Assembly (NCBI RefSeq): GCF_019924045.1
Contig: NZ_JAHXBN010000005.1
Location: 1-64,000 of the forward strand
Reading direction: 5' to 3'
DNA from: Dyadobacter fermentans
Lineage (GTDB): Bacteria > Bacteroidota > Bacteroidia > Cytophagales > Spirosomataceae
DNA length: 64,000 nt
How positions within the stretch are numbered: position 1 is the first letter of the stretch; each line of letters begins with the position of its first letter. The position numbers and the translations under genes were made by a program. Below are positions 5,677 through 55,481 of the stretch, in pieces. The notes under the pieces were generated by a model, which was not told the origin of the DNA, did not search any database, and saw only the letters and a program-made list of their open reading frames with translations.

Positions 5677-5705
5677 CAATCGTTTTTCTTTTATGTTTGC
5701 GTGGT

Positions 5706-5775
5706 GTCCGGGACGCGTAGTCCGGGACACGGTGTCCTGGACGCGTAGTCCTGGACGCGTAGTCCGGGACGCGAA
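5706..5775. repeat. Heptad word array (10 units of 7 bp)
   Basis: Ten consecutive 7-bp units in exact register: GTCC[G/T]GG alternates with ACGCGTA-like words (GTCCGGG, ACGCGTA, GTCCGGG, ACACGGT, GTCCTGG, ACGCGTA and so on), so it can also be read as a 14-bp repeat with five copies. It lies about 30 bp upstream of the ABC ATPase start, in the divergent gap before the esterase gene. No second inverted arm was found here. It belongs to the same class as arrays at 12.3, 37.3, 38.3 and 55.4 kb. Confidence 0.85.
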
Positions 5776-12276: not shown

Positions 12277-12427
12277 GCCGCGTCGCGGCTGACCATGGAC
12301 TGCCGACCATAGACCATGGTTGATGGGATTTGTCAGAATAAATAATTAAATATTCACAAGTATGGGCTGGCCGTCTGCCGTCGGCTGCCAATAAAAGGCC
12401 ATGGTCGATGGTCCATCGTCCATGGTC
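12277..12427. repeat. Paired heptad word arrays in inverted orientation
   Basis: Directly after the transporter stop codon, seven 7-bp units run in register to 12325 (GCCGCGT, CGCGGCT, GACCATG, GACTGCC, GACCATA, GACCATG, GTTGATG). After about 40 bp of AT-rich sequence a second register (12365-12427) gives GGCTGGC, CGTCTGC, CGTCGGC, TGCCAAT, AAAAGGC, then CATGGTC, GATGGTC, CATCGTC, CATGGTC: the reverse complement of the first arm's word. The arms could pair as a long imperfect hairpin between the symporter and kinase genes. Confidence 0.85.
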
Positions 12428-12447
12428 ATTAACATTAAAACGCAACA

Positions 12448-35968: not shown

Positions 35969-36470
35969 ACCGCTTAATCCGTTCAATTAAGTTGCGTTGT
36001 TAGTCCTTCTCCGTCGGTTAAAACCGACGGTATTAGATTGAAATGTTAGCAGAGAAAATCTATTGCCGGGGGCTTTATCCCCCGGATCGGTAATAGATTG
36101 AAATTTTAGCAGAGAAGCAAATCTATTGCCGGGGGCTCTATCCCCGGATCGGTATTAGATTGAAATTTTAGCAAAGAAGCAAGATCTATTGCCGGGGGCT
36201 TTATCCCCCGGATTGGTAATAGATTGAAATTTTAGCAGAGAAGCAAATCTATTGCCGGGGGCTTTATCCCCCGGATCCAAAGCAAAGGAATTGCAAAGGA
36301 AAAGGATTGCAGATTAAAAAGATTTCAATCAAATGAATTGCAGAGCAACAGAACTGCATTGCAATAGCAAGGCAATAACGATAACAAGGCAAAAGCACAG
36401 CTTTTGCCCAAGACCAACAGACAAGTATCATTAACTCAGGGCTTCGGCCTTGGGCCTAGACCAACTATCT
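35969..36470. other. 502-bp non-coding gap with hairpin array
   Basis: No ORF. The first half holds the 63-bp hairpin array described separately; the second half (about 36278-36400) is low-complexity with repeated GCAA/TTGCA words and ends in two short inverted repeats (GGCAAAAGCACAGCTTTTGCC and GGGCTTCGGCCTTGGGCC-like). It interrupts the dehydratase-SDR gene run. Confidence 0.7.
36011..36277. repeat. Array of five REP-like hairpins, 63-bp period
   Basis: Four hairpins of the form CCGGGGGCTTTATCCCCCGG, each inside an outer stem ATCTATT...AATAGAT and separated by a conserved spacer (TGAAATTTTAGCAGAGAAGCA), start exactly 63 bp apart (reference base 36060, 36123, 36186, 36249). A fifth at 36011-36030 has a different stem, CCGTCGGTTAAAACCGACGG, but the same spacer. 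Stem sequence differs while pairing is kept. Confidence 0.9.
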
Positions 36471-37244: not shown

Positions 37245-37250
37245 GTGAAA

Positions 37251-37385
37251 AGCTGTAAGCCATAGGCTATAAGCTATAAGCCCGAACCTTGTTGACACTT
37301 TGGTAAAATTTAAAACACATTAAACATCAAGACGCGGAAGTAATCTCATAGAGCTTACAGCTTATAGCCTATCGCTTAAAGCTTT
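37251..37385. repeat. Paired heptad word arrays in inverted orientation
   Basis: Arm 1 (37251-37285): AGCTGTA, AGCCATA, GGCTATA, AGCTATA, AGCCCGA, exact 7-bp register. Arm 2 (37351-37385): GAGCTTA, CAGCTTA, TAGCCTA, TCGCTTA, AAGCTTT, the complementary word in the same period. The arms are 65 bp apart, filling the gap between the SDR and FAH genes. Confidence 0.85.
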
Positions 37386-37407: not shown

Positions 37408-38274
37408 ATGAAACTCTTTCGATTTGGTGCATTTGAAAATGAAAAGCCGGGCGTAGAATTGGCCGACGGTACGAAGCTGGATGTCTCGGCATTTGGTGAA
37501 GATTATAATGAGAAATTCTTTGCGACCGACGGCATCGCGCGTTTGTCGACCTGGCTGGAAACCAATGCGGCGTCTGCGCCGAAAGTGGTGGAAGGCTTCC
37601 GTTACGGTTCCTGCGTGGCGCGTCCTTCGAAAATCGTCTGCATTGGTATGAACTATGCCAAACATGCTTATGAATCAGGAGCGACGGAGCTTCCGAAAGA
37701 GCCGATCATTTTCTTCAAATCGACCACTGCATTGTGCGGGCCGTTTGACCAGGTGATTATCCCGAGAAACTCGGAGAAAACCGACTGGGAAGTAGAGCTG
37801 GCCGTGGTAATCGGTAAGAAAGCAAGCTACGTCGATGAAGCCAATGCATTGGATTACGTGGCCGGTTACGCAGTTCACAACGATTATTCGGAACGGGCGT
37901 TCCAAATGGAGCGCGGTGGGCAATGGGTGAAAGGTAAAAGCAATGATACCTTCGCGCCGCTGGGCCCATATATGGTCACTTCCGACGAAGTAGGCAATGC
38001 TAATGACCTCGATTTGTGGCTGAGCCTGAACGGCAAGAAAATCCAGGATAGCAATACATCCGATATGATTTTCCAGATCCCGTTCCTGGTAAGCTACCTT
38101 AGCCAATTCATGACGCTGCTTCCGGGAGATGTGATTACGACCGGCACACCAGCGGGCGTGGGCTTGGGCATGAAGCCTCCGGTTTACCTCAAAGCAGGTG
38201 ACGTAGTAGAATTGGGTATTGAAAAACTGGGTTCACAAAAACAGGAAGCGATTGCCTGGAAGGCGACGGTATAA
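37408..38274 (+). CDS. FAH-family 2,4-diketo-3-deoxy-sugar-acid hydrolase
   Basis: 288 residues. The fumarylacetoacetate-hydrolase fold is shown by KIVCIGMNYAKHAYESG, metal ligands Glu128/Glu130 (DWEVELAVVIG) and Asp159 (VHNDYSERAFQ), and the C-terminal GDVITTGTPAGVGLGM. In the non-phosphorylative fucose and rhamnose pathways this family cleaves 2,4-diketo-3-deoxy-L-fuconate (or -rhamnonate) to pyruvate and L-lactate. The presence of LutABC in the same run supports that reaction here. Confidence 0.85.
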   Translation: MKLFRFGAFENEKPGVELADGTKLDVSAFGEDYNEKFFATDGIARLSTWLETNAASAPKVVEGFRYGSCVARPSKIVCIGMNYAKHAYESGATELPKEPIIFFKSTTALCGPFDQVIIPRNSEKTDWEVELAVVIGKKASYVDEANALDYVAGYAVHNDYSERAFQMERGGQWVKGKSNDTFAPLGPYMVTSDEVGNANDLDLWLSLNGKKIQDSNTSDMIFQIPFLVSYLSQFMTLLPGDVITTGTPAGVGLGMKPPVYLKAGDVVELGIEKLGSQKQEAIAWKATV

Positions 38275-38290
38275 GGGAGTTTGCCACGTT

Positions 38291-38480
38291 CGTGGTCATA
38301 AATAGTCAGGGATGATCAGGTATAGTCATTAATAGTCAGGTGTGGTCATGTTCTGTCAAGTGTAGTCACTGATAGTCAAGCCTTGACAATGAATGACAAT
38401 ACCTGACAACACCTGACCACACTTGACAACGAATGACCACAAATGACAATGGATGACAACACATGACCATACTTGACAGC
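38291..38480. repeat. Decamer word array with strand switch (GTCA then TGAC)
   Basis: Nineteen 10-bp units in exact register. Nine units centred on GTCA (CGTGGTCATA, AATAGTCAGG, TATAGTCATT, TGTGGTCATG and so on; one has ATCA) cover 38291-38380; ten units centred on TGAC (GAATGACAAT, ACCTGACAAC, ACTTGACAAC and so on) cover 38381-38480. The second half is the reverse-complement word, so the whole 190 bp can fold on itself. It fills the gap between the FAH and lactonase genes. Confidence 0.9.
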
Positions 38481-38511
38481 CGAACCAAGTTACCAGCACA
38501 GTAAAGAAGTT

Positions 38512-39342
38512 ATGACGATAGACGCTCACCAGCATTTCTGGATATTCGACGAGGAACGTGATTCGTGGATCACACCCGACATGCAGGTTATCCGGCGGAA
38601 TTTTCTACCGGAGGACCTCTGGCCGGTCCTCAAAGCCAATAAAATAGATGGCTGCGTGGCGGTGCAGGCGTCACAGAACGATGCCGAAACGGAGTTTTTG
38701 CTGCATTTGGCCGAAGCCAATGACTTTGTGAGAGGTGTGGTAGGATGGGTAGATCTCAAAGCGGTGAATTTGTATGATCAGCTCGAAAGATACTCGCAGT
38801 TTGAGAAATTGAAAGGCTTCCGCCACGTGGCGCAGGGGCAGCCGGAAGGCTTTCTGCTGCAACCGGAGTTTATCCGGGGCGTGGGTACGCTGGTCGCATT
38901 CGATTTTACCTACGACATTCTCATTTACCAAAACCAGTTGAAGGAAGCATTCAATTTCGCGGTGAAGCTGCCGAATGTGCATTTCGTGCTGGACCATATT
39001 GCCAAGCCGCTCATCAAAGCACAGGAGTTGCAACCTTGGGCCGATGACATTCGCCGGCTCGCCGAATTACCGAATGTGCATTGCAAGGTATCTGGTATGG
39101 TGACCGAAGCCAACTGGATGCATTGGGAAAAAGCCGACTTCCGGCCTTATCTCGACGTGGTTTTCGAAGCATTCGGTACGGAACGCATTATGTATGGCTC
39201 CGACTGGCCGGTATGCCTGGTGGCGGGTGAGTATGAGGGCGCGAAGGGAATCCTCACCGACTACCTGAGCATGTTCTCCGACGACGAAGTACGTGACGTA
39301 ATGGGCAATAACGCGAGACGCTTTTATAACCTCGATATTTAA
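38512..39342 (+). CDS. Amidohydrolase-2 sugar lactonase (L-fuconolactonase-like)
   Basis: 276 residues, TIM-barrel amidohydrolase-2: metal-binding His6-x-His8 (DAHQHFW), VVGWVDLKA, HVVQ-type FRHVAQGQPEGFL, VLDHIAKP and the C-terminal MYGSDWPVCL holding the last Asp. COG3618 members hydrolyse L-fuconolactone, rhamnonolactone or related sugar lactones. Position between the FAH hydrolase and the mutarotase gene supports opening of the lactone made from a 6-deoxyhexose. The ATG at 38512 is preferred to a TTG 39 nt upstream. Confidence 0.87.
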   Translation: MTIDAHQHFWIFDEERDSWITPDMQVIRRNFLPEDLWPVLKANKIDGCVAVQASQNDAETEFLLHLAEANDFVRGVVGWVDLKAVNLYDQLERYSQFEKLKGFRHVAQGQPEGFLLQPEFIRGVGTLVAFDFTYDILIYQNQLKEAFNFAVKLPNVHFVLDHIAKPLIKAQELQPWADDIRRLAELPNVHCKVSGMVTEANWMHWEKADFRPYLDVVFEAFGTERIMYGSDWPVCLVAGEYEGAKGILTDYLSMFSDDEVRDVMGNNARRFYNLDI

Positions 39343-55441: not shown

Positions 55442-55481
55442 TGAATGAGTGAATGACAGAATGATTGAATGAACGAATAGC
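55442..55481. repeat. Octad word array (5 units of 8 bp)
   Basis: TGAATGAG, TGAATGAC, AGAATGAT, TGAATGAA, CGAATAGC in exact 8-bp register, filling most of the 67-bp gap between dtd and the MazG-like gene. A TTGAATGAATG word also occurs near 56037, upstream of dtd. Confidence 0.75.

Follow-up and report, generated by a model that had tools for sequence, protein, structure and literature searches.

What is a 190 bp array of decamers, which reverses strand midway, and what does it represent in the gap between two protein-coding genes of Dyadobacter fermentans? The array is situated at positions 38291-38480 of the window, i.e. the whole 64-kb stretch of DNA that was analysed, which derives from a genome of 8.0 Mb (designated G000; other G numbers denote comparison genomes, and L numbers denote loci). 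As described in the first-pass annotation, nine GTCA decamers are followed by ten TGAC decamers. The left arm (38291-38380, + strand) is composed of units of the word GTCADKDRTD, the third of which reads ATCA, and the right arm (38381-38480, - strand) of opposite-strand copies of that word. The GTCA core occupies unit positions 5-8 in the left arm, and the TGAC core positions 4-7 in the right arm. The exact register attributed to the array holds for the 10 bp steps within both arms, but not for the arm junction, where the lattice is offset by one base and the distance from core to core is 9 bp.

The upstream neighbour (37408-38274, + strand) is, to judge from its sequence, probably fumarylacetoacetate-hydrolase-like, and the downstream neighbour (38512-39342, + strand) is presumably amidohydrolase-like. 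The array fills the gap between these co-directional ORFs, 16 bases after the stop codon of the first (left flank, 38275-38290) and 31 bases before the ATG of the second (right flank, 38481-38511). In G016, G031 and G043 the left flank is retained along with the array and the right flank is well conserved. The array itself carries no ORF, and no Rfam matches were found within the 64-kb window at gathering thresholds. Its phasing score is 54.6 at lag 10; no lag-10 segments scoring 11 or more were observed in two dinucleotide-preserving shuffles of a 464 kb sample of G000 (the window and 20 further stretches, each of 20 kb).

The array had been proposed to be one of a family of intergenic arrays that are built of phased words and have the second arm inverted. 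Such a family exists, well above the level of shuffled sequence: 25 phased segments scoring at least 13, with lags of 5, 7, 8, 10, 11, 13 and 14, were present in the 464 kb, compared with 0.5 per shuffle. The refuting outcome named in the first-pass annotation, counts no higher than in shuffled sequence, was thus not obtained in this sample. Part of these segments lie inside called ORFs, and several are two-armed by eye (AGTTTAG, GGAGGAAG and TGAATGAN). The accompanying proposal that each locus has its own word was not upheld, as the words form genome-wide families. A lattice of four GTCA cores, with at most one mismatch, gave 438 forward and 429 reverse matches in G000, overlapping windows of one array each being counted, and the reversed pattern gave none genome-wide. 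Similarly, the heptamer ARGCYRT (the TARGC family) gave 74 and 79 matches and its control none.

Sister families are represented in the window itself. A TARGC-heptamer array has its left arm at 37250-37281 (+ strand) and its partner arm at 37352-37384 (- strand), and shares its word with an IVP (PF05635/S23) gene on contig C50 of G000. A period-7 array with opposed arms and a GACCATR-like word lies between co-directional ORFs at 12290-12430, and one arm of an octamer array of TGAATGAN, a word that also frames IVP genes in 11 relatives, lies at 55442-55478. The TARGC heptamer arms are ordered + then - and begin at stop codons. Arms of five units make up 11 of 21 on the left and 7 of 21 on the right, numbers that are limited by the search expression, and could be a hint of a pentamer. 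Several array words contain stop triplets, namely TAR for the heptamer and TGA for both the octamer and the right decamer arm; these recur in steps that visit all reading frames. Two other repeats were noted in the window. One, at 5700-5775, is a tandem repeat of 14 bp units with the palindromic core GTCCGGGAC, inside a called ORF that is possibly not a gene; the other, between ORFs at 36028-36277, consists of four tandem units of 63 bp that are nearly identical (91% match), each of which holds a GC-rich hairpin motif, CCGGGGGCTTTATCCCCCGG.

The array-centre pattern of the GTCA family occurs at 25 places per strand in G000 (control, 0). A five-core pattern is present in 34 of 48 Dyadobacter species and, family-wide, in 50 of 222 genomes and 4 of 36 genera, with the reversed control at zero throughout. 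Among the matches listed, the eleven arrays used from named records are all from Dyadobacter, and most other taxa have one arm only. In 44 paired arrays (562 units) the consensus is GTCA-D-K-D-R-T-D in both arms, on opposite strands. The bases between the cores, most of which had been described as variable, are in fact constrained: T is found at position 9 in 97-98% of units and C in no more than 6% at any spacer position, equally on both arms. Because the bias is on opposite strands in two arms that lie tens of bases apart, a simple mutational preference for one strand would not be expected to produce this word. The spacer rule recurs in three further genera with local dialects, e.g. GTCATTNNTD in G109.

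The order of the arms is GTCA then TGAC in 34 of 40 loci, which were picked because they hold cores; opposite-order pairs were observed in none of the 40, and one arm of at least four units in six. One-armed arrays likewise account for 4 of the first 10 loci on contig C9, and locus L208 has an extra lone TGAC arm approximately 900 bp before its pair. Arms are up to 33 units long. Core-to-core steps within arms are of 10 bp in 562 cases, 20 bp in 29, 9 bp in 13 and 11 bp in 16, with few others. Higher-order units were seen, among the matches listed, in the array at C17:317 kb.

With respect to gene context, 27 of 43 arrays lie between co-directional genes, 15 between convergent genes and one between divergent genes (from 44 arrays, with one at a record edge left out and one locus counted twice, using a simple ORF caller). 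The corresponding numbers for background gaps of at least 60 bp in the 464 kb of G000 are 121, 28 and 49. Divergent gaps are thus under-represented (Fisher test, p 3e-4) and convergent gaps over-represented (p 0.003) relative to a background drawn from G000 alone, 17 of the 43 arrays being from other genomes. At co-directional loci (n=26) the array is nearer to the stop codon (median 17.5 bp) than to the start codon (44.5 bp; p 0.007). The GTCA arrays are, then, placed behind stop codons and avoid divergent gaps. A strand-specific RNA element was rejected, as the 5′ arms at 26 co-directional loci contain 203 units and the 3′ arms 209 (p 0.79). Rho loading and ribosome-stop arrays were considered, and set aside, as other readings of the word arrays.

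Positive supercoils accumulate behind genes, and this placement, together with the two-fold symmetry and the 10 bp period, would suit sites for a gyrase-type DNA-wrapping or nucleoid protein, helix-phased and symmetric about the gap. The E. coli gyrase motif (taken here together with BIME-2) is an extended, two-fold symmetric site with periodic arms about a central part, according to the portion of the report available (PMC6379681). Its period is, however, 10.75 bp and is one of GC content, whereas the arrays have a period of 10.0 bp and repeat an exact 10 bp word; moreover, arms reach 33 units, the sister families have periods of 7 and 8, and G109 mixes in steps of 14-19 bp. Such a wrapping protein is considered very improbable. 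The same periods and steps, and the steps of ±1 bp within arms, render doubtful the suggestion in the first-pass annotation that 10 bp serves to place each core on one face of the helix, and strict helical phasing is not required.

The position of the arrays at 3′ ends also raises the possibility of transcribed hairpins, in which the arms would pair in the transcript without regard to register, each unit being able to pair with any other, and would thereby protect transcripts or keep them apart; the word would be frozen because a changed unit loses every pairing partner, and IVP genes would simply settle in such hairpins. Placement at stop codons and the near absence of divergent sites are in keeping with this, as are strong predicted folds (z -4.0 and z -6.0). 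In-register matching of the arms was found in G109 (genus g9), with z values of 3.4 (unit order) and 4.6 (arm swap) for 13 of 15 loci, and units of unusual length (10-16 bases) are mirrored in both arms. Since the test gives a signal there, it is able to detect pairing, but no in-register match was found for 44 arrays from several species (z -0.5), for 25 arrays of G000 (z -0.8 in register and -2.1 by arm swap) or for 21 arrays of the heptamer family (z 0.45 and -0.58). The real unit order folds like permuted spacers (mean z 0.01 ± 0.18 for the 39 of 44 arrays that were short enough). The in-register hairpin was therefore rejected for G000 by unit order, arm swap and folding alike. Eight named Dyadobacter loci gave z values of 1.65 and 2.26 in the in-register test.

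Further points against hairpins are the existence of one-armed arrays and the failure of this explanation to account for one word per IVP group. A run of at least five T was found on 1 of 55 downstream sides (controls, 0 of 25), so the arrays are not intrinsic terminators. Pairing is not what is kept in the G000 arrays, and hairpins are an unlikely explanation of them; those found elsewhere may be an older or younger state. At G109 loci L331-L345, GTCATT arrays are interleaved with small palindromic units, e.g. GCCTTCGGC, which are mirrored in both arms of several loci, like two nested word systems.

To follow the array between species, the amidohydrolase gene, which was found in 48 of 48 genus genomes, was used to locate the same junction. 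The junction was read in the best 30 of these 48. Nine alleles have the array, 18 have eight bases or fewer between the genes, and three have 43-107 array-free bases; array-bearing and empty alleles are scattered over the amidohydrolase gene tree. Two sets of genomes share flanks (G000, G016, G031 and G043; G018, G029, G033 and G007). For 12 pairs within these sets, identity is 0.86-1.00 in the cores, 0.48-0.68 in the spacers and 0.31-0.57 at fourfold sites of the neighbouring gene, the chance value for spacers being approximately 0.48 as calculated from the unit frequencies of the 44 paired arrays. Because the alignment is biased in favour of cores, what can safely be drawn from this result is that the lattice persists in place past synonymous saturation. 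To judge from these alignments, the lattice is kept between species while the spacers are at or near chance similarity, which bears out the earlier statement that the cores are conserved.

The conservation of register had been ascribed to either recent slippage or selection. Slippage explains some arrays with higher-order units, such as that at C17:317 kb, but not those that have persisted between species whose synonymous sites are saturated. A wholly neutral origin, in which tolerant 3′ flanks accumulate the products of slippage and of fold-back copying and the arrays have neither function nor protein partner, would draw on those higher-order duplications, on the presence or absence of the array at one junction in close relatives (9/30 species) and on the occurrence of core changes and ±1 bp steps. 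It is nevertheless rated as improbable, given the difference between cores and both spacers and fourfold sites (subject to the bias of the alignment), the recurrence at many loci of one word, found in 34 of 48 species as well as in three further genera, and the link to IVP genes, which is described below.

Two arrays with long gaps were found to contain, between their arms, an ORF matching PF05635 and TIGR02436. G000 has three PF05635 genes (135, 116 and 101 bits, cut-off 33.8), and the G016 protein scores 98.4 bits against TIGR02436 (cut-off 24). All three G000 genes lie outside the 64-kb window, and all three are framed by inverted arms of dispersed words, a different one in each case: the GTCA decamer at L356 on contig C124, the TARGC heptamer at L354 on contig C50 and the GGAGGAAG octamer at L355. 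We take the neighbours of L356 to be lpdA-like and prfB-like. PF05635 is present in 41 of 48 genus genomes and in none of 14 control genomes.

Framing was measured by comparison of the 5′ flank with the reverse complement of the 3′ flank at 92 IVP loci in 40 genomes, the match rows left out being mostly weaker or fragmentary. The median inverted similarity is 21 at IVP loci and 10 at 122 control genes of G000, and 84 of the 92 loci exceed the control maximum of 14, which was used as the mark. Phased words on both sides (score of at least 11) were found at 46 of 92 IVP loci as against 0 of 122 controls. Many of the 92 loci are orthologous, so the p-value overstates the independent evidence. For IVP loci from seven further genera of this family, the number above the same mark is 27 of 30. 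A phylum-wide draw gave 25 of 30 best-scoring loci above it, mostly with periods of 7 or 8, compared with 7.7% of mismatched pairs; in direct orientation the number was only 3 of 30. The mark is not specific, because 2 of 3 Y1-transposase loci exceed 14 without phased words. These observations leave us highly confident of two points: the inverted words that frame IVP genes are cognate to those genes, and the word of the GTCA array is one of them.

The IVP genes are under purifying selection, with dN/dS of about 0.05-0.14 in 8 of 9 estimable pairs; one near-identical pair has a value of 0.35. In the GTCA element the arms diverge faster than the gene. The median net charge of the proteins is near zero, which is neutral as to nucleic acid binding. 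A PDB search with the G016 protein gave matches over most of its length to 2gsc (E 0.0012) and 2rld (E 0.0024), while the top rows were engineered TPR proteins without a passing stretch. PF05635/S23 was found in 157 of 198 Bacteroidota genomes sampled, with up to 16 copies per genome; G259, G411, G348, G256 and others have 14-16 each. The GTCA-framed gene is 98-99% identical between L356 and L416 (G000 and G016), with dS of 0.05; in the same two genomes, identity at fourfold sites is only 56% for the amidohydrolase gene, which suggests a recent segment exchange. Two segments of 100 bp, approximately 200-400 bp upstream of the IVP match at L356 and within the first part of the lpdA-like gene, have 98-100% identity between G000 and four further species, more than the remainder of the flanks.

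The words were compared with the phylogeny of the genes that they frame. On a tree of 90 IVPs, 15 words, the labels of which had been assigned by eye before the tree was built, require 14 changes, the minimum possible; 200 shuffles required at least 55. Loci framed by GTCA and GTTCGG form one clade (SH-aLRT 100), in which the GTTCGG genes branch from within the GTCA ones and occupy the same locus; TARGC and TCGGC are sister clades with common neighbours. All 18 GTCA-framed loci are flanked by genes for the same two proteins, one lpdA-like and one prfB-like. Each of the 15 words corresponds in essence to one inherited locus in the genus, except AAGGGTTAA, which has two. The shared neighbours in nearly every word group, the fit of words to the tree and the single locus per word argue for inheritance of the IVP genes in place rather than repeated joint transposition. 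Tree and loci together show that a word remains at its locus and changes by drift in place (from GTCA to GTTCGG; TCGGC and TARGC in one shared neighbourhood).

Array abundance was then compared with gene content. In the 18 genomes with a GTCA-framed IVP, including G012 (broken frame) and G013 (fragment only), GTCA counts range from 5 to 665 (median 77) and none is zero. In genomes without one, a group that includes some with further IVP fragments (e.g. G017, G036, G038 and G047), counts range from 0 to 355 (median 3), with 14 of 30 at zero. The difference has p = 3e-6 with shared ancestry ignored. Of seven PF05635-free genomes, five have zero GTCA matches, and G009 and G020 have 9 and 19. Exceptions were seen in both directions. 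G026 (107 matches) and G044 (355) are GTCA-rich and have no GTCA-framed IVP, and arrays are still present in G012 and G013. Dispersed GTTCGG arrays had been predicted for G035, which has GTTCGG- and TGAATGA-framed IVPs; this prediction failed, as no dispersed array of either word, or of GTCA, was found in 400 kb. The IVP gene is neither strictly needed for the persistence of arrays nor enough for their abundance.

On balance, the reading that we favour, with moderate confidence, is that 38291-38480 is a gene-less, IVP-cognate array, and that the IVP protein acts on the word with a logic like that of REP and RAYT. The gene-bearing IVP element consists of tandem words, a PF05635 gene and the same words inverted; gene-less arrays would be copies of its cis-acting part. 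A separate word goes with each IVP group of the genus, and in G000 dozens of two-armed gene-less arrays, 38291-38480 among them, are situated at gene 3′ ends. IVP/S23 proteins are four-helix bundles, ring-shaped where solved, and to our knowledge no catalytic activity has been ascribed to them. As to the function of the pairing, we infer that the IVP protein itself may recognize its word, perhaps one word per ring subunit, and that this recognition could spread, homogenize or keep the arrays, by analogy with what is thought for RAYT and REP. A broader reading, which we put forward only tentatively and regard as rather doubtful, is that the Bacteroidota harbour a novel class of protein-directed interspersed repeats, in which IVPs read tandem words of 7-10 bp, possibly one per subunit, and each lineage maintains a private 3′-end word; S23-coding rRNA intervening sequences (IVS) would be its rRNA-dwelling branch.

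Several known systems were considered. CRISPR arrays have repeats of about 21-48 bp, separated by spacers of comparable length, next to cas genes; this candidate was rejected on the structure of the repeat, the present array having a 4 bp core in 10 bp units and opposed arms. STRRs and TAACTGA heptamers, described from Cyanobacteria, Beggiatoaceae and five Bacteroidetes, are likewise intergenic, short-period tandem words found across the genome, and form long arrays in some Bacteroidetes (PMC4679880). TAACTGA units are exact and for the most part in forward orientation, and most lie immediately upstream of start codons; in the part of that report available, an inverted second arm is not the rule and no linked gene is reported (PMC4679880). 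The decamer array, with degenerate 10 bp units and two opposed arms, was not assigned to them.

In the 23S rRNA IVS, the element that contains the S23 ORF is delimited by complementary sequences in inverted orientation, as stated in the available part of PMC4990558. The protein family is the same, and the bordering of the ORF by inverted repeats is shared by the gene-bearing elements. The IVS, however, reside within rRNA genes and have a plain stem, whereas IVP elements lie between protein genes, the Dyadobacter arms are tandem words and most copies are ORF-free. Membership was rejected, since the array in the window is situated between protein-coding ORFs and L356 between the lpdA-like and prfB-like genes.

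RAYT genes are flanked by inverted copies of a repeat that is also dispersed gene-free, and REP repeats are extragenic, are often behind genes and correlate in number with the cognate gene, according to the portions available of two reports (PMC2817692, PMC1525189). The IVP genes resemble them in being framed by an inverted repeat that is also dispersed without the gene, and the dispersed extragenic copies are more numerous where the cognate gene is present, with G026, G044 and the G035 sample as exceptions. They differ in that the framed gene is PF05635 and not a Y1 tyrosine transposase, and in that the repeat is made up of tandem degenerate words of 7-10 bp. A Y1 transposase was rejected as the partner: beside the three PF01797 matches in G000 there are no phased arrays, i.e. 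no GTCA/TGAC lattice of at least three cores and no phased score above 8.0.

In the open-access literature, no paper was found on Dyadobacter word arrays or on repeats that frame IVP genes, and each known class differs from them in one or more defining features; within that literature the pairing of IVP gene and word is new. Its closest relatives are RAYT/REP in logic and the rRNA intervening sequences in protein. S23/PF05635 proteins are described as having no known function in the available part of PMC4990558, and the cognate DNA or RNA word beside each IVP gene provides a direct candidate ligand. The IVP words also provide a named source for repeat arrays in many intergenic gaps of Bacteroidota. 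If the proteins do direct the arrays, this would be a second partnership of a gene and a dispersed repeat, after RAYT and REP, and one unrelated to transposases.
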